From Calothrix sp. MO_167.B42 (GTDB taxonomy: Bacteria > Cyanobacteriota > Cyanobacteriia > Cyanobacteriales > Nostocaceae), in the NCBI GenBank assembly GCA_030065255.1, contig JASJCX010000035.1, positions 1 through 33,053 on the forward strand: 33,053 bases of DNA, written 5' to 3'. A model generated the notes under the pieces. It had not been told where the DNA came from, did no database searches, and worked only from the letters and a program-made list of their open reading frames with translations. The position numbers were made by a program, and so were the translations under genes. This document shows, one piece after another, positions 18,946 through 33,053 of the stretch (position 1 is its first letter; the number at the start of each line of letters is the position of its first letter).

Positions 18946-19245
18946 TTAGACGAGATAAGGTTCTTGATGGGTTTTAATTGTGCAATTAGAGCGTGGATAA
19001 GTAACACAAAGTAGAGCAAACCCTTTTTCTACCTGCTCGTCATCTAAGAAGTTTTGGTCAGATTGATCGATTTCACCTTCAACCACCTTACCAACACAAC
19101 TAGAGCAAGAACCGGCGCGACAAGAAGAAGGTAAATCAATACCGCTTTCTTCTGCTGCTTCTAAGATAGTAATTTCTTCGTCTACCTCAATGGTGGTGTC
19201 GAGATTCTCTTTTTTGCTGATGAGTCTGACTTGATAAGTTGCCAT
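18946..19245 (-). CDS. fdxH: Heterocyst-type [2Fe-2S] ferredoxin FdxH
   Basis: Plant-type ferredoxin that passes electrons to nitrogenase reductase in heterocysts. The 99-residue protein has the [2Fe-2S] ligands Cys42, Cys47, Cys50 (CRAGSCSSC) and Cys80 ([13 protein letters not shown]). The C-terminus [11 protein letters not shown] and the segment [19 protein letters not shown] match my memory of Anabaena FdxH closely. GAGGAG nine bases upstream supports the start. It ends the nif cluster and is followed by a strong terminator. Confidence 0.93.
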
Positions 19246-19320
19246 TTTCCGATTCTCCTCAAACTTAATAGAGTTAGGTTGGATAAAGCTACTCCCTTCC
19301 CGGTGGAAGATTTCCTATAA

Positions 19321-19389
19321 CGTAGGTTGGGTTAAACGAAGTGAAACCCAACACAGACGTTGGGTTTCGTTCCTCAACCCAACCTACAA
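19321..19389. repeat. Inverted repeat GTAGGTTGGGTT / AACCCAACCTAC
   Basis: Long hairpin-forming element between hesB and fdxH: the outer arms are perfect over 12 bases, and inner AAACCCAAC/GTTGGGTTT adds a second stem. This folded repeat is common in cyanobacteria. It may stabilise or separate the fdxH part of the transcript. Confidence 0.75.
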
Positions 19390-19462
19390 TTTTTCGGTAA
19401 TCTTAGAGCGTAATGGGAGTAATAGCTTTTAAGTGGGTAAATGCAGACTTGCGGTACTAACT

Positions 19463-19834
19463 TTAGCTGCAAGGTACACCTGGGGAATTACAGTCACTGG
19501 TTTTAAATGATTTGCCACAACCGCAAGTATCAGTAGCATTGGGATTGGTAAATTTAAAGCCGCTATCCATTACACCATCAACAAAATCAATCACCACTCC
19601 TTCTAGTAAGGGGGCACTTTTTGCATCAACATAAAGTGTCACCTCACCTTGCTCAATCACCAAATCATCTGGCTGCGGTGTACTAGTAATATCCATGCCA
19701 TACTCGTATCCACTGCAACCACCATCTTTAACAGAGATGCGGATACCCTTAGTTTTGCCATTAGTATTGGAAACAGAATTCCCTAGAAATGTTTGTAGCT
19801 GAAATTCTGCTTTTTCTGTTAAAGTAACAGTCAT
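19463..19834 (-). CDS. hesB: HesB/IscA-family Fe-S assembly protein
   Basis: A-type Fe-S carrier of the nif-linked HesB type. The three conserved cysteines are Cys40 (KDGGCSGYEYGM), Cys104 and Cys106 (DTCGCGKSF). The extra C-terminal tail with DCNSPGVPCS is often found in the heterocyst HesB. The 123-residue length fits. AGGAGG six bases upstream of ATG supports the start. It lies between hesA and fdxH as in other heterocyst-formers, separated from hesA by 376 bp that contain only short repeats (AAAATCT/AAAATCC units at 20167-20196). Confidence 0.92.
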   Translation of the reverse strand: MTVTLTEKAEFQLQTFLGNSVSNTNGKTKGIRISVKDGGCSGYEYGMDITSTPQPDDLVIEQGEVTLYVDAKSAPLLEGVVIDFVDGVMDSGFKFTNPNATDTCGCGKSFKTSDCNSPGVPCS

Positions 19835-20210
19835 TCGACCTCCTGAATCTTTGGGATGATGAATATTGATACCAAGTTGAAAAATCCAACATGGTATTAG
19901 AAAAAAGTTGGTTGTTTGTCAAAAAAGGCAAAGGAAAAGCCTGATAGGTGTAGATTTTTGGCAATGGGGTTATTAGCAAAATATGCTCTCCCCCACTCCC
20001 TATCTTTCTTTCCCTCTACTTCTTCGGTGATGGTTAATGGAAAAGCAAAAATAATTAGTAGTTCCTTAGCAACAGCAAAATAACTGAGGCTTAACTTAAT
20101 ACCAATTTGAAAAATGATTGCGACAGATGGAAAAGAAGAAAAACTTATATATAAGCTCTTTCACAATCCAAAATCTAAAATCTAAAATCCAAAATGGTAT
20201 AGCTAAAGAA

Positions 20211-21011
20211 CTATTGGGAGTAATTGCTAGTTGTTTCCATTGAATTGGATTGGGAATATCGCCAGGGAGCATTATTACCACAAACTGGGCAGGATCGATC
20301 GCGGTGAGAACGGCGTTTAGCAAATTCCATCCGCGCCAAGTCTATTGTCAACAGTTGGGACAGCAGGGGTTGACTAAAACCGGTAATTAGCTTGACAGCT
20401 TCTATGGCTGTTAAACAAGCCAATGTCCCAGACACAGCACCCAGTACGGAAAAAGCCCGTCGATCCCAATCAGGTTTTTCTGGAAACAAACAAGATAAGC
20501 AAGGAGTTACCCCGGGAATAATCGTAGTTAGGTAAGCCTCCATCCCATCCATTGCTGCTTCTACCATTGGCTTGCGCCAACGCACGCAAGCCTCATTTAA
20601 TAAGTTGCGCTCGTCAAAATTGTGGGCACAGTCCAAAGCCATATCGGCTGACTGGACTAGGGAATCCACATTTTCAGGGGTGATATACTCATGAACTGCA
20701 TCTATGCGAACATCAGGATTGATAGCTTCAAGAGTTTCCTTAGCTTTGAAAACCCTTGGTTTACCTACCCAATCATCCGTCATGAGAATTTGGCGATTCA
20801 TGTCATCAAGTCGCAAATCACCACCCCGGACTAGAACCAGCCGCCCAACGCCTGCTACCGCTAGGTAGAGCGCAGCCGTACCGCCTAATCCTCCCACACC
20901 AGTAACTAGAACTGTCGCTGACTTCAATCGCTTCTGTGCTAGCTCACCAAAATTGGGGAGCATAATTTGACGACTATAACGTTCTAACTCGGTAGGCGTT
21001 AGGTTAACCAA
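20211..21011 (-). CDS. hesA: HesA, ThiF/MoeB-family adenylyltransferase-like protein
   Basis: E1-like enzyme of the MoeB/ThiF/HesA family. The nucleotide site is visible as VLVTGVGGLGGTAA (38-44 core), and RYSRQIMLPNFG is the family N-terminus. MNRQIL and DCAHNFDERNLLNEAC are also family motifs. Two CXXC pairs (CLSC and CPVC) would bind zinc. The 266-residue product starts at TTG 21011, with AGGAGG seven bases upstream and no ATG until residue 16. In heterocyst-formers hesA is co-transcribed with hesB and nifW. Its exact substrate is not known; a role in Mo/cofactor or Fe-S sulfur handling is usually assumed. Confidence 0.9.
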   Translation of the reverse strand: MVNLTPTELERYSRQIMLPNFGELAQKRLKSATVLVTGVGGLGGTAALYLAVAGVGRLVLVRGGDLRLDDMNRQILMTDDWVGKPRVFKAKETLEAINPDVRIDAVHEYITPENVDSLVQSADMALDCAHNFDERNLLNEACVRWRKPMVEAAMDGMEAYLTTIIPGVTPCLSCLFPEKPDWDRRAFSVLGAVSGTLACLTAIEAVKLITGFSQPLLSQLLTIDLARMEFAKRRSHRDRSCPVCGNNAPWRYSQSNSMETTSNYSQ

Positions 21012-21021
21012 TTTTTACCTC

Positions 21022-21339
21022 CTAATCAGAATTGATTTCTGTCAGCGTGACTACATTTTTCGGCTTATCATTAAACACCTTGAACAGCTTTTGTTCGTGG
21101 GGTGTTGATTCAATAAAAACCTGATATGCTTTTTCTAAAGCATCGCGATAATGGGTTAATTTATCTGACAATTTTAAGTCAGAATATTTCTCATCAATTT
21201 CTTGAATATATTGGGAAAATTTTTTCAATATATGTAAGCGATTGACATTCACAATTTCTTGCTCGTAGGGCATGTCAAAGAATTGAAAATATTCTTCTGC
21301 ATCTACAAGTTGTTGGAATTTTTCTATATCCCAAGTCAT
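21022..21339 (-). CDS. nifW: Nitrogenase-stabilizing/protective protein NifW
   Basis: NifW helps protect or mature the MoFe protein. The signature LVDAEEYFQFFDMPYEQEIVNVNRLHILKKFSQYI (in pieces: LVDAEEYFQFF, NVNRLHILKKFSQYI) matches the family. The 105-residue length is normal. Its ATG overlaps the stop of the preceding DUF683 gene by 4 bp, indicating translational coupling. The stop lies 10 bp upstream of hesA, so the three are one unit. Confidence 0.92.
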   Translation of the reverse strand: MTWDIEKFQQLVDAEEYFQFFDMPYEQEIVNVNRLHILKKFSQYIQEIDEKYSDLKLSDKLTHYRDALEKAYQVFIESTPHEQKLFKVFNDKPKNVVTLTEINSD

Positions 21340-21554
21340 TTTCCCTGCTCCATTTTTTTCAGTTGTTGCTTGAGGTCGTCCAACTGTTGATATATGTCAT
21401 ATGTTGCTTGGGCAACATCCATCAGGGTTTTATAATCTGTTGGTAGGCCCTCTGCTAAGTCATGCAGATCCATTTTCATTTGACCTGCTTTACTGTTAAG
21501 TCGCTTGATTTTTGTTTTTAGTTCTTCTATATTGGTTTGCTCTGTTTTAGTCAT
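21336..21554 (-). CDS. CCE_0567-family (DUF683) nif-associated metalloprotein
   Basis: A 72-residue helical-hairpin protein: IEELKTKIKRLNSKAGQMKMDLHDLAEGLP and TLMDVAQATYDIYQQLDDLKQQLKKM, each shown in part. This small family is found almost only in nif clusters of cyanobacteria and proteobacteria; the Cyanothece member was crystallised as a metal-binding antiparallel coiled coil. His26, in the first helix, could take part in metal binding. It overlaps nifW by 4 bp. Its function in nitrogen fixation is not known. Confidence 0.85.
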   Translation of the reverse strand: MTKTEQTNIEELKTKIKRLNSKAGQMKMDLHDLAEGLPTDYKTLMDVAQATYDIYQQLDDLKQQLKKMEQGK

Positions 21555-21559
21555 CTGCT

Positions 21560-21756
21560 GGCAACGGATAATTTGTTGGCTATTGTTTTAATCTTTGGTT
21601 TCCCATCTGGATGATTTTTCGTATTACCGGGGTTTGGCAACGGATAATCTGTTGGCTATTGTTTTAGTTTCTGGCTTTGGCAACGGATAATTTGTTGCTT
21701 ATTGTTTTAGTTTTGGGGTTCCTATCTGGATGATTTTTCGTATTACCGCAGTTTGG
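21560..21756. repeat. Composite direct-repeat block upstream of the DUF683 gene
   Basis: Three copies of a unit starting GGCAACGGATAAT and ending TATTGTTTTA (from 21560, 21636 and 21679) alternate with two copies of TCTGGATGATTTTTCGTATT (21607 and 21726). The unit head GGCAACGGAT is also the head of the repeat at 4859-4945. The block ends only a few bases before the gene start on the minus strand and must be transcribed with the nif operon. The rest of 21757-22131 is heptamers and AT-rich DNA. Confidence 0.8.
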
Positions 21757-22018
21757 TGAGTGTTTTGTACTGTTGGTGAAGTACTCAGAAATGGTGAGGA
21801 ATTAAGAGTTAAGAAGAAGTAATTAAGAATTAAACCCAATCGGTGATTGAAAACTGGAGTTTTTCTGTTAGGGGCACGGCATCTGTAAGATTTTCAATAT
21901 TCCCACATTGTTTGCTGTACCTTTTCACCTATGGAGCATTCGTCGTCAGCAAAAACTATGAGTTTCAAGATAGACGTAGTTGAATTATTCTATTTATTAG
22001 AATTAAGATTTATTTTTG

Positions 22019-22126
22019 TAATCTTAATTCTTAACTCCTAACTCTTAATTCTTAACTCCTAACTCTTCACTCTTAACTTTTAACTTTTAACTCCTACCTG
22101 TCAACTGTCAACTGTCAACTCTTAAC
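22019..22126. repeat. Tandem heptamers in the nif operon
   Basis: Runs of TTAATTC/TTAACTC/CTAACTC and then CAACTGT units. They lie directly downstream of the DUF269 gene, inside the nif transcription unit. Confidence 0.8.
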
Positions 22127-22131
22127 TTGTG

Positions 22132-22608
22132 TTAGATTTTTCCTACTTCTGGGAAACGTTTGGCTAAATCAAGACCTTTCTCAATGAATTTCCCCCCTTC
22201 TTCAGCTACTTTCTCTAAAGATTCAAAGCCAAATCTATGGGCATCGCGGAGAGATTTTTTTGCTAGTAATAATCGTCCAGAAAATACTAATGCCCAACCA
22301 AAGCCTTCATGGTTTAAGTCAATTACGACTTGTGAAAGTAAACCGGTTTCCTGTTCAATACAAGCGGCCACAGCTCGATAAAAAGCCATAATTCGCCCTA
22401 TGGTTCTGGGATCGACTTCTCCTTCTAAGGAGATTTCACGCTTTTGTTTTTTGCTGACTATGTAGGGTTTGAGAATTAATTCATCAGACCAATTACGATA
22501 AACACCATAAACATCTTGACCGCGAATTTGTTGAACTATCGCTTTAAGAAATGGTGAATTGATCGGTTCGTTTTTGGCTGTATCATTAATACTATTAGTA
22601 TTAGTCAT
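22132..22608 (-). CDS. NifX-associated nitrogen fixation protein (DUF269)
   Basis: A 158-residue member of the DUF269 family, nearly always found directly after nifX. Family motifs: SPFLKAIVQQIRGQDVYG, YRNWSDELILKPYIVSKK, GEVDPRTIGRIMAFYRAVA and GFGWALVFSGRLLL. It is thought to assist FeMo-cofactor assembly or trafficking, but the mechanism is unknown. ATG 22608 has GAGG nine bases upstream; a TTG immediately upstream is also in frame. The start is within 4 bases of the nifX stop, so translation is coupled to nifX. Confidence 0.9.
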   Translation of the reverse strand: MTNTNSINDTAKNEPINSPFLKAIVQQIRGQDVYGVYRNWSDELILKPYIVSKKQKREISLEGEVDPRTIGRIMAFYRAVAACIEQETGLLSQVVIDLNHEGFGWALVFSGRLLLAKKSLRDAHRFGFESLEKVAEEGGKFIEKGLDLAKRFPEVGKI

Positions 22609-22611
22609 CAA

Positions 22612-23016
22612 TTAATCCTCCAATTCTGCTTCTAATAAAGTCCCCCGATCTTTTTGCAAAGCTTTGCGTAACCAAGGGGGAGGATTGCCTTTCAAGGTTT
22701 GCACTAATTTATTTAAAACCGTGACAATTTCGTCACTATCTGATTTTGCTTTGACTGGAGTAACGCGTTTTTTTATCAGACGGGCTGCGGCAATACCACC
22801 AATAGCTGATACATAAACAATGGTACAATCATTGAGTGCATCAAGTTTTGGTACTAATTTGTCTTCCTTGCCATCTTGCTTTAAATCTCCATCAAATTTG
22901 AGAGTTTCTAGGAATTTATATCCTTCTGGAGAAACCTCATAAACATCAATTTCTTTCGCCCATCCAAAGTGAGCATTTATATGTACTCTATCGCTCGTAG
23001 TGAAAGCAATTTTCAT
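22612..23016 (-). CDS. nifX: NifX, FeMo-cofactor precursor carrier
   Basis: NifX binds NifB-co and the VK-cluster between NifB and NifEN. The 134-residue protein has the NifX/NifY-type fold: KIAFTTSDRVHINAHFGWAKEIDVYEVSPEGYKF (in pieces), KLDALNDCTIVYVSAIGGIAAARL and the family end KGNPPPWLRKAL. It is normal length. It lies 180 bp after nifN; the gap has no gene. The start has no clear Shine-Dalgarno, but no alternative start is better. Confidence 0.93.
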   Translation of the reverse strand: MKIAFTTSDRVHINAHFGWAKEIDVYEVSPEGYKFLETLKFDGDLKQDGKEDKLVPKLDALNDCTIVYVSAIGGIAAARLIKKRVTPVKAKSDSDEIVTVLNKLVQTLKGNPPPWLRKALQKDRGTLLEAELED

Positions 23017-23195: not shown

Positions 23196-24515
23196 TTACA
23201 AGTCACCATTAATATGTTTGGTTTTTGCTTCCTCTGCATCTAAAAATTTGTTACCAATATCAAATAACATCTGCATTGTGCCTTGGTAACCAACTCTGGT
23301 AACTTGACCATTACCTAAGCGGTCGAAAATTGGGAATCCGTGGCGATAAAGAGGGATATTTAAACGTTTGCCGATTGCATGGGTGTGGGAGTTGCCAATT
23401 AACAAATCCGAACCCTGGGCTAATTTTTCAAAGTCTTCGTAATCACCAATGGTAACGGTTTCTACTGATAGTTCTTCTAGTAAGGACGAACGAGTGGTGG
23501 TAACCGCAGTTTGAATTTCTGCTCCCATGGACTGGAGAAAATTAACCGTAGACCACAGTAAATCTGGTTCTAAAGCTAGAGATACTTGCTTGCGGCCAAA
23601 ATAGAAGTGGCTATCTAGCATGGCATCTTGTACTTGTCGGCGTAAGCGGTTATATCTTTCTGGGACATCATTACCGCTAATATCAGACAATGCCATGATA
23701 AATTCATCTACTGGCCTTAAACCTGTGAGTTCTCTAAACACCTCATGGGGTATACCAAATTGCTCTGACAAAATTTGCGCTGCACCCCGCATACTTTCAC
23801 CCAATGCTAAGGTAAAAGCGGAACTACCCATACTTTGTAGTTGTTCTACGGTAGTACCACCATTAGTAATGGGACTCCAACCATCATCTAAGTGTCCATC
23901 CATGGATAATGATAAATCGGGCACGCAAATAGGTGTAAGTCCAAAGCTAGAAATAATTTCTTTGATATGTTGAACATCCCCAGGGGTAAATGCTGAACCC
24001 ACTAACAGATTAATTTGTTGTGGTTTGGTGTCTCCTGGTTGGGGGAGTTCTCTCACCATACTCTCCACCGCAGCTGCATAACCATCTTGCAATGCACCTT
24101 TAAAATCTGGAGCGGAGACTAGTATGATGGGCAAATCATTGAGTTCTGGATGCTGCTTGCGAAAATCTTTGAGGATACCTTGCATATCATCCCCTCTGGT
24201 TTCCGTTAGTCCAGTGGTACACAAACCAATCACTTCTGGTTTGACTTTCTCTACCAAGGTGAGAATTGCCTGTTCCACATTATCCTCACCACCCAAAATG
24301 GTTGAAACTTCCGTCATCGCCGTAGTGGAAAGGGGAATTACTTCCCGGAAATGACGTACCAAAATGACTTTAGCAAAAGCCGTACAACCTTGAGAACCAT
24401 GCAACAGAGGCATCATTCCTTTTAGTCCTAGAAAGGCTAAGGTTGCACCCAAAGCTTGACTTTGTTTGAGAGGATTTACTACAACTGCTTTGTTGGGAGT
24501 GGTGACAATCGCCAT
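23196..24515 (-). CDS. nifN: NifN, FeMo-cofactor scaffold subunit
   Basis: NifN pairs with NifE in the NifEN scaffold on which NifB-co is matured to FeMo-cofactor. The 439-residue protein is complete: start NPLKQSQALGATLAFLG and HGSQGCTAFAKVILVRHF (Cys44, cluster ligand), GLCTTGLTETRGDDM, VSAPDFKGALQDGYAAAV, FGIPHEVFRELTGLRPVD and YRHGFPIFDRLG. It follows the nifE fragment by 192 bp; that gap is filled with repeats. It is intact although its partner gene is cut. Confidence 0.95.
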   Translation of the reverse strand: MAIVTTPNKAVVVNPLKQSQALGATLAFLGLKGMMPLLHGSQGCTAFAKVILVRHFREVIPLSTTAMTEVSTILGGEDNVEQAILTLVEKVKPEVIGLCTTGLTETRGDDMQGILKDFRKQHPELNDLPIILVSAPDFKGALQDGYAAAVESMVRELPQPGDTKPQQINLLVGSAFTPGDVQHIKEIISSFGLTPICVPDLSLSMDGHLDDGWSPITNGGTTVEQLQSMGSSAFTLALGESMRGAAQILSEQFGIPHEVFRELTGLRPVDEFIMALSDISGNDVPERYNRLRRQVQDAMLDSHFYFGRKQVSLALEPDLLWSTVNFLQSMGAEIQTAVTTTRSSLLEELSVETVTIGDYEDFEKLAQGSDLLIGNSHTHAIGKRLNIPLYRHGFPIFDRLGNGQVTRVGYQGTMQMLFDIGNKFLDAEEAKTKHINGDL

Positions 24516-24707: not shown

Positions 24708-25541
24708 CTATTCCCAAGGTGCGGCTTGACGAATTTGCTCCCACACCGGACTATGAAGGGCTTCATCCAATTCCTTGGCCATTTCGATCATGCCGATATA
24801 ACCTGCATAACGATGATGGCGTTCTTGGTTAATATCTAGGAAAGGAATTCTGGCTTTGAGGGCGGTATACTGGTTACGACCCCCAGCAATCAGCATATCT
24901 GCATTTGTCTCACTGATAATTCGCAGAATTTCCTGGGGATTACCTTTCTCTAAGGTAATACCATCTTTGCCCAATAACTGCTTAATACGAGCTTTATCTT
25001 CCTCTGTACTCTTCTTGGTACTAGTAGCTACAACTTCCATGCCCAAGTCTTTCGCAGCAGACACAATTGACCAACTTTTCACTCCTCCGGTATAGATAAC
25101 TACTCGTTTACCCTTGAGGCGATCGCGGTAGGGAGCTAAAGCTATATCTAACTTTGCAGTTTCTTCGGCAATTAATTTCTCAGTCCGCCATTGTAAGTTA
25201 ATATCTCCAAACTGGAGGGCAATATTACGTAAACAACGGTTGACATCTTCTACACCATAGAAAGATTCTTCAATGTAAGGAATCCCATACTTTTCCTCCA
25301 TTTTTCTACCCATATTTAATAGGGCTTTGGAGCAAATCATCACATTCAGTTTGGCGCGGTGAGCCTGAGCTACTTCGTGGTAACGAGCATCACCGGTAAT
25401 TTTTGCCAAAACGCGAATCCCCAATTTTTGGAATAGGGGGAGGACGTTCCACATTTCCCCGGCAATGTTGTACTCACCAATCAAGTTAATATCGAAGGGT
25501 GTTGTAGTTTCCGGTTCTGCTAAACACTTACTACAACACAT
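24708..25541 (-). pseudogene. nifE: nifE, 3' part only (interrupted or truncated)
   Basis: This is the C-terminal 270 or so residues of NifE, which normally has about 450-480. From [18 protein letters not shown] onward everything is conserved: [19 protein letters not shown] (Cys70, equivalent to the cofactor-binding Cys of NifD), [37 protein letters not shown] and [16 protein letters not shown], ending PAPWE-like AAPWE. The first roughly 190 residues, including the N-terminal Fe-S cysteines, are missing. The nine residues before AEPE (MCCSKCL and neighbours) are not NifE-like and come from the adjoining DNA. Without the 5' part it cannot make a scaffold, so it is either a broken gene or one half of a gene split by an element that is removed in heterocysts. 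Confidence 0.9.
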
Positions 25542-25546
25542 TTTAT
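25520..25546. other. Junction between nifE and non-nif DNA
   Basis: NifE-like coding ends near GGTTCTGCTAAAC (plus strand) at about 25522. Beyond it the sequence no longer matches NifE. If this is an excision element, its core direct repeat should lie here. I see none of the core sequences I remember for the nifD (GGATTACTCCG) or fdxN (TATTC) elements. Confidence 0.5.
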
Positions 25547-26023
25547 CTATTGGTTATTAGTAGTCTCTTCTGGAGGCGATTCAACTTTTGGGTGTTCAGC
25601 TTTCATTTTCCATCCCAAATGTTCTTTTATGAAAGATATAGACCATTCATATGCACGTTCCAAGAACCGAACAAGGGGTTTGAATAATGCATAGGCAACT
25701 TCATCAAGATTGGGTTGTTTAATCTCCAGCCAATTCCGCAAATTCTGACCACTTTGAAAAGCAATACCCGACATCCAAATCGTTAAAGCAATAATTAAAG
25801 TCAATAAAAATAAAACAATAGCGAACAGTTGCTTGAGAATCTGCCAAGTTTTACCAGCAGCTTGCTGATAGGTAGCTATGGTATCTTTGTCTGAGAGAGT
25901 AGCCCATAGTTTTATTGCCCCTTGAATAGAGTTGTATTCTGCGGGTAAAAAATTTTCTTTTTTGTAGAGGACTGGAAAACAATCAGGGGAAGACGGAATT
26001 TGTTTGATCGAAGTTTCTGGCAT
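25547..26023 (-). CDS. Unrecognised single-pass membrane protein
   Basis: A 158-residue protein with a cytoplasmic-looking N-terminus (to about 60), one long hydrophobic helix ([19 protein letters not shown], roughly 66-84) and a soluble tail with amphipathic helices ([29 protein letters not shown]) and an acidic Pro-rich end. The start is ATG 26023. I do not recognise the family. Its stop is 5 bp before the nifE fragment's ATG, so any transcript of it would read into nifE. It could be the small membrane ORF that heterocyst-formers often keep between nifK and nifE, or belong to the CIS region; sequence alone does not decide. Confidence 0.65.
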
Positions 26024-26460: not shown

Positions 26461-27831
26461 ATGGGTTTGTCAGATATCCATACCCTAGAAACAGCACTTA
26501 AATACTTAGCTGAGGTAATTCAGTATCGCTTGGATTCTTACTTTAATGAGCATGGACAGCCTCAGCAGCCAATGCCAAATCCACCAGAGCAATGGTTAAC
26601 TACACAGAGTCCTCTTGCCTGGTTTATTCACAAGTATAAATTGGATTATGCTGCCCAGTTAACTCTACTGATTGCCCTAGCCCCCCATTTACAACCTGAT
26701 TTTTTTGATCGAACCATAGTATCTCAATTACCTCAGGCTGGTGACTACCCCCAAATTGGTGGCTGGCGCGGCAAGTCCTATCGGGGATTCCTACCAACAG
26801 GGGAGACAGTTTTGTTTATTCTGGGAAGCAGCCAAGTTAGCAATACCCCTGCCGAATTAATTCACGAACGCCTGCTGCTTCAGCAAATTTTTAACGAAGA
26901 ACATCCCTTTGCCCGCAATCGTGTACTGTACTTGGAACCACCCCCAGAGGGTGAACCCATGATGAGCGGCAAACTAGTTATGACTCAGGACTATATCTCG
27001 CTGTTTACCCAAGGGCATTTTTCCCGTCCCCGTTTCAGTTTAGATTTTCCCGCCCAGCGCATCACCACTGAAATGGAATGGGAAGATTTAGTTCTCAATG
27101 CCCAGACTCTACAACAAATTCGAGACTTGGAGGGCTGGATTACTCACGGTTCAACCATTCTCTATGAATGGGGCATGAAAAGAAAACTTAAACTGGGATA
27201 CCGTGTCCTCTTTCATGGTCCCCCTGGTACAGGTAAAACCCTCACCGCTAGCCTTTTGGGCAAACACACTGGTAAAGATGTTTACAAAGTAGACCTATCG
27301 ATGGTGGTATCCAAATTTATCGGTGAAACGGAAAAAAACCTCGCTAATCTGTTCGCACGAGCAGAAAGTAAGGATTGGATTCTGTTTTTCGATGAAGCTG
27401 ATGCTTTGTTTGGCAAGCGTACCAATGTCCGTGATGCCCATGATAAATACGCCAATCAGGAGGTTAGCTACCTGTTGCAGAGGGTGGAAAACTACGATGG
27501 TTTGGTAATTCTCTCCTCCAATTTTAAGAGCAATATTGATGAAGCTTTCCTCCGCAGATTTCAATCACTGATTCAATTCCCGATGCCCAACCCCAAACAA
27601 CGGCTGCAATTGTGGAAAATGGCTTTCCCATCCCAGGTGAAGCTGACTTCTGAAGTAGACCTGGCTGAATTTTCCAGTACATATGAACTAAGTGGCTCTG
27701 ACATTATGAATGTAGTCCAGCACTGTTGCTTGCAAGCATTGCAGGGTGGTAATGCAGTTATTGATCGAGAAGGACTAATCAAGGCAATCAAGCGGGAATT
27801 TAGCAAATCTGGAAAGATTAGTAAGGGTTAA
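26461..27831 (+). CDS. CIS-associated AAA+ ATPase
   Basis: A 456-residue AAA+ ATPase like the one that accompanies extracellular contractile injection systems (Afp15/Pvc15 type). Residues 1-200 are a family-specific N-terminal region (LAWFIHKYKLDYAAQLTLLIALAPHL, GWRGKSYRGFLPTGET). The AAA+ core has Walker A GPPGTGKT (253-260), FIGETEKNL, Walker B WILFFDEADALFGKR (306-320), sensor 1 LSSN (351-354) and arginine finger FLRRF (363-367). In eCIS this ATPase is thought to act in assembly or recycling. It is separated by 938 bp from the next CIS gene, an unusually wide gap. ATG 26461 has no clear ribosome site. Confidence 0.88.
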   Translation: MGLSDIHTLETALKYLAEVIQYRLDSYFNEHGQPQQPMPNPPEQWLTTQSPLAWFIHKYKLDYAAQLTLLIALAPHLQPDFFDRTIVSQLPQAGDYPQIGGWRGKSYRGFLPTGETVLFILGSSQVSNTPAELIHERLLLQQIFNEEHPFARNRVLYLEPPPEGEPMMSGKLVMTQDYISLFTQGHFSRPRFSLDFPAQRITTEMEWEDLVLNAQTLQQIRDLEGWITHGSTILYEWGMKRKLKLGYRVLFHGPPGTGKTLTASLLGKHTGKDVYKVDLSMVVSKFIGETEKNLANLFARAESKDWILFFDEADALFGKRTNVRDAHDKYANQEVSYLLQRVENYDGLVILSSNFKSNIDEAFLRRFQSLIQFPMPNPKQRLQLWKMAFPSQVKLTSEVDLAEFSSTYELSGSDIMNVVQHCCLQALQGGNAVIDREGLIKAIKREFSKSGKISKG

Positions 27832-28769: not shown

Positions 28770-29348
28770 ATGATCATTGATGCAATGAGGTTGATACAGG
28801 TTGCTTTGCAGCGCTATATTCTGGAAGTTGAGCCACAGCTTGCACCTGCTCAGGTTGTCATGATTGATAACATTGCCACTGCCGAAGAACTGGGTGGTTC
28901 TAATAATCAACTGAACGGACATGTGGTGATGAGTCTAGTTAACCTGCAGGAAGAAACTACGCTCAAAAATGGTTCTAATTATCGCTTGGAGAATGGTCGC
29001 ATAGTGTACCAAAATTCTCCAGTTCACCTGAACCTGTTTATTCTATTTTCAGTTCTGCACAATCAACACGAAACAGCTCTGCAATTACTGTCACGAGTAA
29101 TTGAGTTTTTTCAGTCACAAAGGGAGATCTCACCGTTCGCCACCCCTGGGACTGGGTTAATTGCACCAGATGTACGGGTAATTTTGGATCTCTACTCTCT
29201 GACATTCGAGCAGTTGAACCATCTGTGGGGAAGCCTGGGAGGTAAACAAGTTCCCTTCGCCCTTTATCGCGCTCGTTTGGTTGCCCTAGAAGCTGAAAAA
29301 CGGCAGGCAGAAGGACCTGTAATTACCGAAATCTATTTAAACGAGTAG
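28770..29348 (+). CDS. DUF4255 CIS protein (Pvc16/Afp16-like cap)
   Basis: A 192-residue DUF4255-family protein, the tail-terminator or cap component of extracellular contractile injection systems. Features include IIDAMRLIQVALQRYI at the N-terminus, VMSLVNLQEETTLKN, PVHLNLFILFSVLHNQHETALQLLSRVIEFFQ (in two parts, shown here shortened) and LDLYSLTFEQLNHLWGSLGGKQVPFALYR. These match the family pattern of SLVN.QEE and NLWG.LGGKY.PS..Y. The length is standard. It opens the plus-strand sheath operon and is followed with a 16-bp gap by the 407-residue gene. Confidence 0.85.
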   Translation: MIIDAMRLIQVALQRYILEVEPQLAPAQVVMIDNIATAEELGGSNNQLNGHVVMSLVNLQEETTLKNGSNYRLENGRIVYQNSPVHLNLFILFSVLHNQHETALQLLSRVIEFFQSQREISPFATPGTGLIAPDVRVILDLYSLTFEQLNHLWGSLGGKQVPFALYRARLVALEAEKRQAEGPVITEIYLNE

Positions 29349-29364
29349 GCTCACCGATTGGGTT

Positions 29365-30588
29365 ATGAAGATTTTGTACAAAAAAATCCTGAATTTGGAA
29401 CTTTGGCATGACTATTACATTGGTCAGCCCAATCCCCCCACCTTACCAGCTACTGATTATGAAATATCGGACATGCTGGCACTGGTGCCCACTGCCAATT
29501 GCCAACAGGTGCTGCAAAATCTACGCTGGGTCTTCCGTCCCCAACCTCGTGGAGGAAATATTTTTGCCTATGTAAAAGAAGTTAATCCTGGGGATGTCAA
29601 CACTGATTTTCAGACGCAGATAACAGTAGACCGTCCTTACCGATTGACATTTTGGTTGGTAGTGCGCGATCGCTACTTTGCTAATTACACAAATTTACCA
29701 CTGAGTCCACCTCCCCAGCAGATTTATTATTTCTCGAATCTATCAAATAATCAGGGTCATGCCCTATTTCTAACTCAACCCTTACCAGTTTACGCTGCTA
29801 ATACTCCCTATCAACTAGGACAATTGGTGACTTATGATGACAATACTCTAGAAGCATTGCGTAATCATACTTCTGTTAATGCAATACCTGATACTAGTAG
29901 TTGGGATTTTTTCCCCCGTAGCCAGTATGTTTCCCAGGGAGATTCGCTGCCGCACCAGGTATTATTCCGCACATATTCCATTGTAGGAGTCAATGCTGGC
30001 GATCGCTTTAGTTTCACCTTGGTAGATGCAAATGAGCAAGAAACCTTTGCCTTGGAAGTAACAGCCCCAGATAATCATACCCCTGGTGAGGCGATCGCTA
30101 CCAATCTCAATTTCTCTGAACAAATCCCTGGACGTTATCGCCTATATCTAGATGGAAGCCAGGTAGATGAGTTTGTCATTTTCGACCCAATGGCTGCTTC
30201 TAATGTTTTTGGGCTTGTGGAAATTGTTCTCAATCCGAACCTAGTACCACCAGCTTTCTCTGTGTTGCAATTTCAAAACGGAGATACCTTAATTCAACCG
30301 AAAACCTACGTTATTCACTTTAAAAACCGGGCTACCCATTGGCGATATCGCTACGAAAGACCCCATGGGTTCACGGAAGACGACTTACCCGACTTTGAAT
30401 TAAAAGATGACAAAACTTACTTTAGCAAGCGACCCCGGGGTTTACTGCGACAACCCGAGCGACTACTTACCGATGGTGACGACAATCTCCTACCAGCACC
30501 GGGAGTAATGCTGATTAAGCCAGAAACCCAAATTGATCCCGAAACTCAGTCAGGGGCGATCGCTATTTTTTCTGATATTCATTTGTAA
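29365..30588 (+). CDS. Unrecognised CIS-cluster protein
   Basis: A 407-residue protein of unknown function between the DUF4255 and sheath genes, with tight spacing (16 bp before it, 28 bp after it). It appears strand-rich and soluble: LELWHDYYIGQPNPPT at the start, LRWVFRPQPRGG, YRLTFWLVVRDRYF, then a segment PGRYRLYLDGSQVDEFVIFD, and near the end NRATHWRYRYERPHG and GAIAIFSDIHL. There is no signal peptide. Position suggests a structural part of the particle or an adaptor; I recall proteins with this start in eCIS clusters of Bacteroidetes and cyanobacteria, but I cannot confirm. Confidence 0.7.
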   Translation: MKILYKKILNLELWHDYYIGQPNPPTLPATDYEISDMLALVPTANCQQVLQNLRWVFRPQPRGGNIFAYVKEVNPGDVNTDFQTQITVDRPYRLTFWLVVRDRYFANYTNLPLSPPPQQIYYFSNLSNNQGHALFLTQPLPVYAANTPYQLGQLVTYDDNTLEALRNHTSVNAIPDTSSWDFFPRSQYVSQGDSLPHQVLFRTYSIVGVNAGDRFSFTLVDANEQETFALEVTAPDNHTPGEAIATNLNFSEQIPGRYRLYLDGSQVDEFVIFDPMAASNVFGLVEIVLNPNLVPPAFSVLQFQNGDTLIQPKTYVIHFKNRATHWRYRYERPHGFTEDDLPDFELKDDKTYFSKRPRGLLRQPERLLTDGDDNLLPAPGVMLIKPETQIDPETQSGAIAIFSDIHL

Positions 30589-30616: not shown

Positions 30617-32635
30617 ATGGCAAGTTCCTACAAAACTCCAGGCGTTTATATCGAGGAAATCTCTAAGTTTCCACCTTCGATTGCGGAAGTCGCCACCGCC
30701 ATTCCCGTTTTTATTGGCTATACCGAGCAGGCGATAGTCAGAGGTGTTGATTATCATAAACTTGCAGCAGATGCACAAAAAGCGGCAGAAGAAGCATCTG
30801 ACCTTATAGATGGTGTAGCAGATCCAACAAGCTTGGTAGACGCAGCAGTAACAGCGGTAGACGCAGCAGTAGCAGCGGTAAATGAAGCAAAAACAGCAGT
30901 AGACGCAGAACTAACAGATGCACAAACAGAAGTAGACGCAGCATTAGCAGCGGTAAATGAAGCAAAAGCAGCAGCAGATGCCGCAAAAACAGCAGTAGAC
31001 GCAGCAGTAGCAGCTCCAGAGGATGCAGCAGCACAAACAGCAGCAGACACAGCAGCGCAAACAGCAGCAGATGCCGCAAAAGCAGCAGCAGATGCCGCAA
31101 AAACAGCAGCAGATGCCGCAAAAGCAGCAGTTCCAGACGATGGAGCAGCAGATGCAGACAATTCAGCACAAGTAGCAGCAGCAGATGCTGTAGATGCAGC
31201 AAAAGTAGCAGTAGATGAAGCAGCAGATGCAGCAGCAAAAGCAGCAAAAGCAGTAGTAACAGAACCAGCAGATGCAGCAGCAGCAGCAGCACAAGCAAAA
31301 GCAGTGGCAGATGCAGCAAAAGTGGCTATACCAGTGAGGATTACTTCCTTATTAGAGTACGAGCAGTATTTTGGAACAACCGAACCTGAAACTGGAATTG
31401 TTGTCACCATTGAAGAAAAACTTGATAAAGATGGAAAGGTAACAGATCGTAAAGTATCTGGCAAGAACGAAACACCTTCTAACCACAATATGTATTACGC
31501 CATGCAGGCATATTTTGCCAATGGAGGGGGACCTTGTTATATAGTTTCCGTTGGTAAGATAAAGACTGCTGCTGGAATAATTACAGCTCAAGACCTTCAG
31601 GATGGGATTAAGCAAATTGCTAAAGAAGATGAAGTGACGCTATTTGTCTTTCCTGAGTCCCAGTCCTTAAGTTCTGCTGATAGAACGGGGGTTTTCGGTG
31701 ACGCAATCCAACAATGTTTTGATTTGCAAGATCGCTTTGCGATTTTCGATATGCAGGTGCCGGAAGAAGGGGAGACTATCTTGGCTGCCGCAGGAAAATT
31801 TCGGGATCTGAGTTTAAACCTCGATGCTCTTAAGTATGCAGCTGTTTATACGCCTAATGTGGAGACTATTTTTAATTATGAATATGACCAAGACGAGGTA
31901 ACACTGGTTCATTCGGAAACTCTCCATGATAGAACTGTTCAAGATGGTAAGTTTCATAATGAAAAAATGTCCGCTTTAGCTCCCGATAAGGATGATAAGG
32001 CAGCAGGAGATGCAATTTTGTTGAATTTGGTAAAAGCTGCAATCGATGCAATTCCAATCATTCTCCCACCCAGTCCGTTGGTAGCAGGGCAATATGCCTT
32101 TGTCGATAACACCCGGGGAGTATTTAAGGCTCCTGCCAATGTTGCACTCAGTTCGGTGATTAAGCCCACAATTAAAATTACTAACCTCGACCAGGATAAT
32201 CTCAATATCGACACATCTGGTAAGTCCATCAATGCCATTCGCGCTTTTACTGGCAAAGGTACATTAATTTGGGGTGCCCGTACCCTAGCAGGGAACGATA
32301 ACGAATGGCGTTATGTGCCAGTGCGTCGCTTTTTCAACATGGCTGAAGAATCGATCAAGAAAGGAACCGAGCAATTTGTGTTTGAGCCGAATGATGCCAA
32401 CACCTGGACTAAGGTGCGGGCGATGATCGATAACTTCCTCATCCTCCAATGGCGAGCGGGAGCATTGCAGGGAGCAAAACCAGAACAGGCGTTTTTTGTC
32501 AAAGTGGGACTCAACGAAACCATGACCGCCTTGGACATTCTCGAAGGTCGCATGATTATTGAAATCGGTATGGCTGTAGTACGTCCGGCTGAATTTATTA
32601 TTCTCAGATTCTCCCACATGATGGCAGAAAGCTAA
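30617..32635 (+). CDS. Contractile tail sheath protein with Ala-rich insertion
   Basis: Sheath subunit of a phage-tail-like injection system. It starts SSYKTPGVYIEEISKFPPSI, then IPVFIGYTEQA, typical of the family. The C-terminal half has NGGGPCYIVSVG, FVDNTRGVFKAPANVAL, GKGTLIWGARTLAG and RRFFNMAEESI, ending in the assembly arm region TALDILEGRMIIEIGMAVVRPAEFIILRFS (quoted here in part only). At 672 residues it is about 190 longer than expected because residues 46-237 are a low-complexity Ala-rich stretch with repeated AAKAAADAAKTAADAAK-type units. The stretch begins right after the first strand and ends where RITSLLEYEQYFG resumes the standard fold. The tube gene follows 95 bp later. Confidence 0.9.
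   Translation: MASSYKTPGVYIEEISKFPPSIAEVATAIPVFIGYTEQAIVRGVDYHKLAADAQKAAEEASDLIDGVADPTSLVDAAVTAVDAAVAAVNEAKTAVDAELTDAQTEVDAALAAVNEAKAAADAAKTAVDAAVAAPEDAAAQTAADTAAQTAADAAKAAADAAKTAADAAKAAVPDDGAADADNSAQVAAADAVDAAKVAVDEAADAAAKAAKAVVTEPADAAAAAAQAKAVADAAKVAIPVRITSLLEYEQYFGTTEPETGIVVTIEEKLDKDGKVTDRKVSGKNETPSNHNMYYAMQAYFANGGGPCYIVSVGKIKTAAGIITAQDLQDGIKQIAKEDEVTLFVFPESQSLSSADRTGVFGDAIQQCFDLQDRFAIFDMQVPEEGETILAAAGKFRDLSLNLDALKYAAVYTPNVETIFNYEYDQDEVTLVHSETLHDRTVQDGKFHNEKMSALAPDKDDKAAGDAILLNLVKAAIDAIPIILPPSPLVAGQYAFVDNTRGVFKAPANVALSSVIKPTIKITNLDQDNLNIDTSGKSINAIRAFTGKGTLIWGARTLAGNDNEWRYVPVRRFFNMAEESIKKGTEQFVFEPNDANTWTKVRAMIDNFLILQWRAGALQGAKPEQAFFVKVGLNETMTALDILEGRMIIEIGMAVVRPAEFIILRFSHMMAES
30755..31330. 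repeat. GCA/GCC-rich repeat tract inside the sheath gene
   Basis: Repeats based on GCAGCAGATGCCGCAAAA encode the Ala/Lys/Asp segment in the sheath. Reading frames on the minus strand (for example 30754-31488) stay open through it only because of the repeat composition. The tract is far richer in GCA than its neighbours. Confidence 0.85.
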
Positions 32636-32730: not shown

Positions 32731-33053
32731 ATGGCTAACTATCCATTACCAAAGTTTCATTTCAACGTGGAGGCGGGGGAGCTCAAAGGGGGATTCTCCG
32801 AAGTTTCCGGACTGGATGTGGAAACCGAACCCATCGAATACCGCGAAGGTAATATGCCCCAATTTAGCAAGCTGAAAATGCCCGGTATGCAGAAATATAG
32901 CAATATTACGATGAAGCGGGGCACCTTCAAAAGTATTAATAATTTCTATGACTGGTGGAATAGTGCCGTAAAACAGGCTGACCACAGCCAGTATCAGCGC
33001 ACTTTGATTATCACTTTGTTGAATGAAAGTAGTGAGGTGGTGGTAACCTGGAC
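32731..33053 (+). CDS. CIS inner tube protein, partial (gp19/Hcp-like)
   Basis: This is the 5' part of a tube protein gene, cut by the window edge after 107 codons. ATG 32731 gives ANYPLPKFHFNVEAGELKGG, then FSEVSGLDVETEPIEYREGN, MPGMQKYSNITMKRGTF and NNFYDWWNS, the pattern of T4 gp19-type tube proteins in contractile injection systems. The tube is the hollow shaft driven out when the sheath contracts. The gene is too late in the window to show its C-terminus. A second tube gene is expected next, as in other eCIS clusters. Confidence 0.88.
   Translation, partial: MANYPLPKFHFNVEAGELKGGFSEVSGLDVETEPIEYREGNMPQFSKLKMPGMQKYSNITMKRGTFKSINNFYDWWNSAVKQADHSQYQRTLIITLLNESSEVVVTW

Follow-up and report, generated by a model that had tools for sequence, protein, structure and literature searches.

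The window analysed here is the whole of contig C49 (33,053 bases) from a draft genome of 5.5 Mb in 384 contigs, 80% complete with 2.11% contamination; Calothrix rhizosoleniae SC01 and two MAGs of Calothrix are members of the same genus. The C-terminal part of nifE lies on its minus strand (24708..25541), followed downstream on the same strand by nifN (23196..24515, TIGR01285) and by the rest of the nif block, which ends in fdxH (18946..23016). The initial annotation had described these downstream genes as intact. Indeed, nifN and fdxH, the latter named by family match, were matched over their full length; the genes between them are open reading frames whose names come from that annotation and from gene order. 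At the upstream end of the nifE part we found, also on the minus strand, a recombination core, GAACCGGAA (25509..25517), common to the split nifE genes of relatives, and next to it the attR arm of a putative nifE element (25518..25543), which codes for the first residues of the open reading frame, MCCSKCLA.

Beyond the arm the DNA is not nif, as had been noticed before. A 158-aa open reading frame with one hydrophobic stretch, judged by eye, comes first (25547..26023, minus strand); at E 0.001 neither Pfam nor NCBIfam gives a match for it, and its stop codon lies 3 bases from the attR arm. The plus strand then carries an AAA ATPase (26461..27831, Pfam AAA), a protein with a Pvc16_N domain of the tail cap type (28770..29348, PF14065, E 1e-38), a 407-aa protein whose position is taken by a similar ORF in both NIES-3974 and genome G012 (29365..30588), a tail sheath protein that contains a long insert rich in Ala and Asp (30617..32635, Phage_sheath_1C) and a gp19-like tail tube protein (32731..33051, Phage_T4_gp19), cut by the contig end that forms the right edge of the window at 33053. 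By these Pfam matches, sheath, tube and cap genes stand together in a contractile injection system locus. At 672 aa, the sheath protein of the window is longer than its counterparts in NIES-3974 (478 aa) and G012 (539 aa). The 1228-aa baseplate-side protein of the distal injection locus had no match in the window genome (80% complete).

The nifE part lacks about 184 codons at its 5' end and matches TIGR01283 from position 194 to the end of the model at 459, with the start of homology where the initial annotation had placed it. Neither a nifE 5' part nor an intact nifE was found among the 384 contigs of the window genome, an assembly 80% complete; the other three matches in this search were nifN and two nifD pieces. 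The latter, on contigs C257 and C297, had been considered as nifE pieces and were rejected, both being nifD. They mark two nifD junctions at codon 260 in this genome (G000; C257:4238-6234 and C297:31329-32864), each adjoining its own serine recombinase. Identity is 81% between the two recombinases and 91%, over 129 bases, between the nifD pieces; either nifD is present in two copies or the assembly combines two strains.

The remaining nifE half is under purifying selection. Compared with the intact SC01 gene, dN was 0.025 and dS 0.46; against two split copies of the same genus the values were 0.032 and 0.70, and 0.037 and 0.74, giving a dN/dS of about 0.05 for the three comparisons. Since dN is this low relative to dS against three same-genus copies, decay is unlikely, in line with the earlier view that the nif cluster is not in general decay.

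The break itself has a conserved structure. The codon at which nifE is split is identical in the window and in 16 further genomes, which also have core and arm in common (G023/G072, G003/G060, G002/G061, G034/G062, G015/G063 and G001/G073, which have equal coordinates, were each taken as one genome and counted once). From the 26 bases before the GAACC core in the 16 other split nifE genes we built an attR profile that excluded the window. The window arm scored 27.2 bits on this profile and the next best place in the window, on either strand, 11.7; the 16 profile arms, scored on a profile containing them, reached 19.6-36.7 bits. The arm consensus upstream of the nifE C half in relatives is AAAGGTGTTGTAGTAAGCGTTTATGT, followed by GAACC(N)GA. 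nifE HMM matches in relatives break near position 193, with variable alignment ends. In these relatives GAACC closes the N half, and the arm behind it looks like an inverted copy of the C-half arm; at the attL of G264, GAAC is kept and GAACC is not. A short repeat common to both junctions, as anticipated in the initial annotation, is thus present in relatives as the GAACC core (GAAC in the G264 attL). Exchange probably occurs at the GA (25517-25516) of GAACC, because the arms read as symmetric about this GA, and G264 agrees with it. In NIES-22, a stop codon just past the attL core is removed when the halves are joined. The DNA just inside attR differs between lineages, with the exception of the trio G006, NIES-2107 and FACHB-104 and of matches of up to 177 bases. 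On these sequence grounds, an interruption element of nifE has one of its ends, attR, in the window.

Joining the two nifE halves in silico at the core gave an open nifE in all 15 genomes tried. Where several GAACC pairs were possible, the pair with the longest frame was retained, and under this rule the joined frames measured 453-470 aa with the NifE motif in 14/14 genomes; G264, joined with core GAAC, gave 464 aa. The nifE 5' sequence has therefore not been lost in all relatives, since both halves were found and could be joined in frame in 15 genomes. A serine recombinase of 468 residues with Resolvase, Recombinase and zinc ribbon domains adjoins the nifE 5' half in 14 of the 15 joined genomes, about 40 to 320 bases past the end of the N half. 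A nifE-type recombinase was found in at least four of 388 genomes at E 1e-180; at most four candidates were scored per genome and the known carriers G002, G003, G015, G021 and G034, either undrawn or missed, were not among the four, so that this count is not a frequency. In NIES-267 the nifE recombinase (6956159-6957562) sits at the nifE-C end and not at the nifE-N end, as if the interior of the element had flipped. One assembly, G061, contains two nifE 5' halves (contigs C53 and C160), each with its own nifE-type recombinase.

The recombinase predicted in the initial annotation thus exists in relatives, of serine type and mostly beside the nifE 5' half; in the window genome (80% complete), a search with two nifE-type queries did not find it. 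Recombinases on C257, C297 and C291 were considered and rejected, being 38-43% identical to these two queries, as compared with 76-90% for the full-length nifE-associated recombinases of relatives (self match excluded); two of the three adjoin nifD pieces.

The explanation that best covers these data, to which we assign a probability of roughly 0.9, is that an interruption element of the serine-recombinase type is inserted in the window nifE at about codon 185/186, with its attR at the break. An assembly gap would hide the rest, located elsewhere in the chromosome: the 5' half of nifE, attL and the gene for the recombinase, presumably the same one as in relatives. As heterocysts differentiate, a timing taken from the known family, this enzyme would recombine attL with attR at the GAACC core, by excision or by inversion, and nifE would be remade in frame. 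The missing N half and recombinase weaken this case little, because the assembly is only 80% complete. Of the interruption element proposed at nifE in the initial annotation, the end at the break stands, with its conserved att site and in-frame joining in 15 genomes; a phage-tail-like locus in its interior and the missing half at its far end on the minus strand are possible but unproven.

If the injection locus does lie inside the nifE element, it would be cut out with it and heterocysts would be left without the locus, a form of the explanation to which we give nearly an even chance. About 3 bases separate the locus from the attR arm, and interruption elements range from 1.3 kb to nearly 1 Mb according to the available part of Hilton 2016 (PMC4874684); same-strand nifE halves lie 6 to 29 kb apart in NIES-22, B12, G021 and NIES-267. 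The relatives speak against it. No injection-system genes were found in the 22 nifE regions covered (queries including the sheath) or in 34 loci, which in draft genomes cover only part of the nifE element, and we rejected the idea that such genes are a regular part of nifE elements. Where relatives have a near copy of the locus, it is not next to nifE: it lies at 0.60 Mb versus 3.9 Mb for nif in NIES-3974, at 2.42 versus 5.98 Mb in G012, and about 53 kb beyond nifB in G006.

The AAA gene has copies 75-85% identical in G012, G023, G022, G006, G065 and G070, and near copies are placed at 0.60 Mb in NIES-3974, 2.42 Mb in G012, 1.53 Mb in G006 and 2.12 Mb in NIES-2107, on contig C99 in FACHB-104 and on contig C91 in G022. 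G023, G012, G022 and G006 likewise have the 158-aa ORF next to the AAA gene in divergent orientation. In G003 the 158-aa gene is on C93 and the distal injection genes are on C37; the DNA match to this genome starts at 25543, the outermost base of the attR arm. An ORF behind the 158-aa gene of G003 (C93 34426-35727) is presumably IscB-like, the name being given by its start. A near AAA copy occurs in 4/16 genomes, which are four of the opposite-strand ones described below; three of them belong to one lineage, so this coincidence is uninformative.

Nine genomes carry both nifE halves on one contig. The halves share a strand in four (NIES-267, NIES-22, the uncultured B12_bin-0982 and G021) and lie on opposite strands in the other five (NIES-2107, FACHB-104, G006, NIES-3974 and G264), so that the simple excision picture need not hold. 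As counted from the assemblies, the opposite-strand arrangement appears in three lineages. In the first, G006, NIES-2107 and FACHB-104 have one common arrangement (matching pieces of more than 280 bases are 87-97% identical), in which nifK-C and nifE-N are inverted as one unit; nifK is split at about codon 428 in G006 and NIES-2107, and the FACHB-104 stretch stops short of nifK-N. In NIES-22, a relative, nifK-C, nifE-N and nifE-C all run in one direction. In NIES-3974 and G264, the second and third lineages, the block from nifE-C to fdxH is inverted relative to nifE-N; we regard these as separate events because the DNA between the halves is unmatched, but for 129 bases close to the recombinase. 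In NIES-3974 nifE-N lies before 3914986 and nifE-C beside 3944017. Another member of that genus, G417, shows the N half of nifE only. A further split of nifK, near residue 160 and by about 1.9 kb, was seen in G072 (3910145-3913657) and G417 (C152:9978-13455), with pieces overlapping by 9-10 residues.

With attL and attR on opposite strands, their recombination would flip the DNA in between. In both G264 and NIES-3974, scripted inversion made nifE whole and placed nifN, nifX and fdxH downstream of it on the same strand; for G006, two scripted steps, first inversion at the nifK site and then removal of 12,983 bases by excision at the nifE site, yielded complete nifK, nifE, nifN, nifX and fdxH in order. 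No other nifE was found in a search of NIES-3974 and G264, and G006, NIES-2107 and FACHB-104 have another nifE-like gene above the cut-off and need not depend on the split one. An att core blind to orientation was set aside as the cause of inversion, its central GA being asymmetric. In NIES-2107, two inverted copies of a 153-base repeat, 82% identical, lie close to where the inverted piece probably ends, and may have caused the inversion there; this repeat has two copies in G006, one in the FACHB-104 stretch and none in the NIES-22 stretch.

The available part of Hilton 2016 calls seven opposite-strand cases likely mis-assembly and does not characterise them further (PMC4874684). The assemblies of NIES-2107 and NIES-3974 were checked with mate pairs according to the genome paper (PMC8634303), which gives the archive numbers DRA012644 and DRA012713 for the reads, and at the assembly level G006, NIES-2107 and FACHB-104, three assemblies, agree on one arrangement. 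Among the literature matches listed, no title or opening of an abstract dealt with nif genes remade by inversion, which is weak evidence of absence, as subscription journals lay mostly outside the scope.

For the window, the other form of the explanation would be that an inversion or rearrangement joined the injection locus to attR and that nifE is remade by the flip of a chromosome segment. This is a tentative proposal, somewhat short of even odds. The opposite-strand halves in three lineages, the restoration of nifE and of the operon order by virtual inversion, in G006 together with excision, and the variable DNA just inside attR argue for it. On the other hand, no inversion is visible in the window genome, four of the nine genomes have their halves on one strand, and the window keeps left-hand neighbours, cysK and a small Mop-like gene, that are also present in G060. 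Any inversion end on that side would thus lie beyond these two genes.

An assembly chimaera, in which the nifE end and the injection locus were falsely joined, appears improbable. The draft state of the genome, with its 384 contigs and 2.11% contamination, and our analysis at the assembly level would allow for it, but the two sides come from a single clade: nifE is 94% identical to that of Calothrix MO_192.B10 and the 158-aa ORF 80% identical to its counterpart in G003, which is taken as the same genome. Furthermore, the att arm is a true site, so that nifE would be split in any case. Simple deletion or decay of nifE with no element involved would fit the absence of the 5' half from the assembly, but is made highly implausible by a conserved att arm and core exactly at the break and by the dN/dS of about 0.05.

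The nifE interruption element has several known counterparts. XisF of the fdxN element is of the large serine recombinase type, and the target gene and core of that element differ from those of the nifE element. The nifE recombinase resembles this type in its Resolvase, Recombinase and zinc ribbon domains. The fdxN element is named in Hilton 2016, where nifE is also among the interrupted genes, with two elements and one variant (PMC4874684, in the part available). As described there, the interruption elements of heterocyst-forming cyanobacteria each have a serine or tyrosine recombinase, short direct repeats and xis near an element end, like the nifE elements of the relatives; opposite-strand cases were set aside there. 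In the SP-beta/spsM and skin/sigK systems of spore formers, a gene is likewise remade by recombination during development; the accounts available describe excision and no inversion, unlike what is proposed for nifE. The injection locus has the sheath, tube and cap gene set of the thylakoid-anchored contractile injection system of Anabaena, for which, in contrast to the window locus at attR, no interruption element is described in the part of that paper available (PMC8894136).

In conclusion, this kind of element is already known and the window alone is one more member of it. As far as we searched, two features are new: an injection locus fused to the element end, and the recurrence in relatives of halves on opposite strands, which points to inversion. 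The comparison weighs more than the window: opposite-strand split nifE was found in five assemblies and the joined genes are open; no other nifE was found in NIES-3974 or G264. It is conceivable, if still doubtful, that nif interruption sites serve as an inversion switch in several heterocyst-forming lineages, by which a segment including unrelated genes would be flipped and nifE, together with nifK where excision also takes place, would be remade with less or no loss of DNA; the window would be one more case, its attR-fused injection locus being inverted in heterocysts or severed from the surroundings that it has in vegetative cells. If this is true, surveys that discard opposite-strand split genes as mis-assembly miss inversion, and nitrogenase genes would be remade by programmed inversion and not by excision alone.
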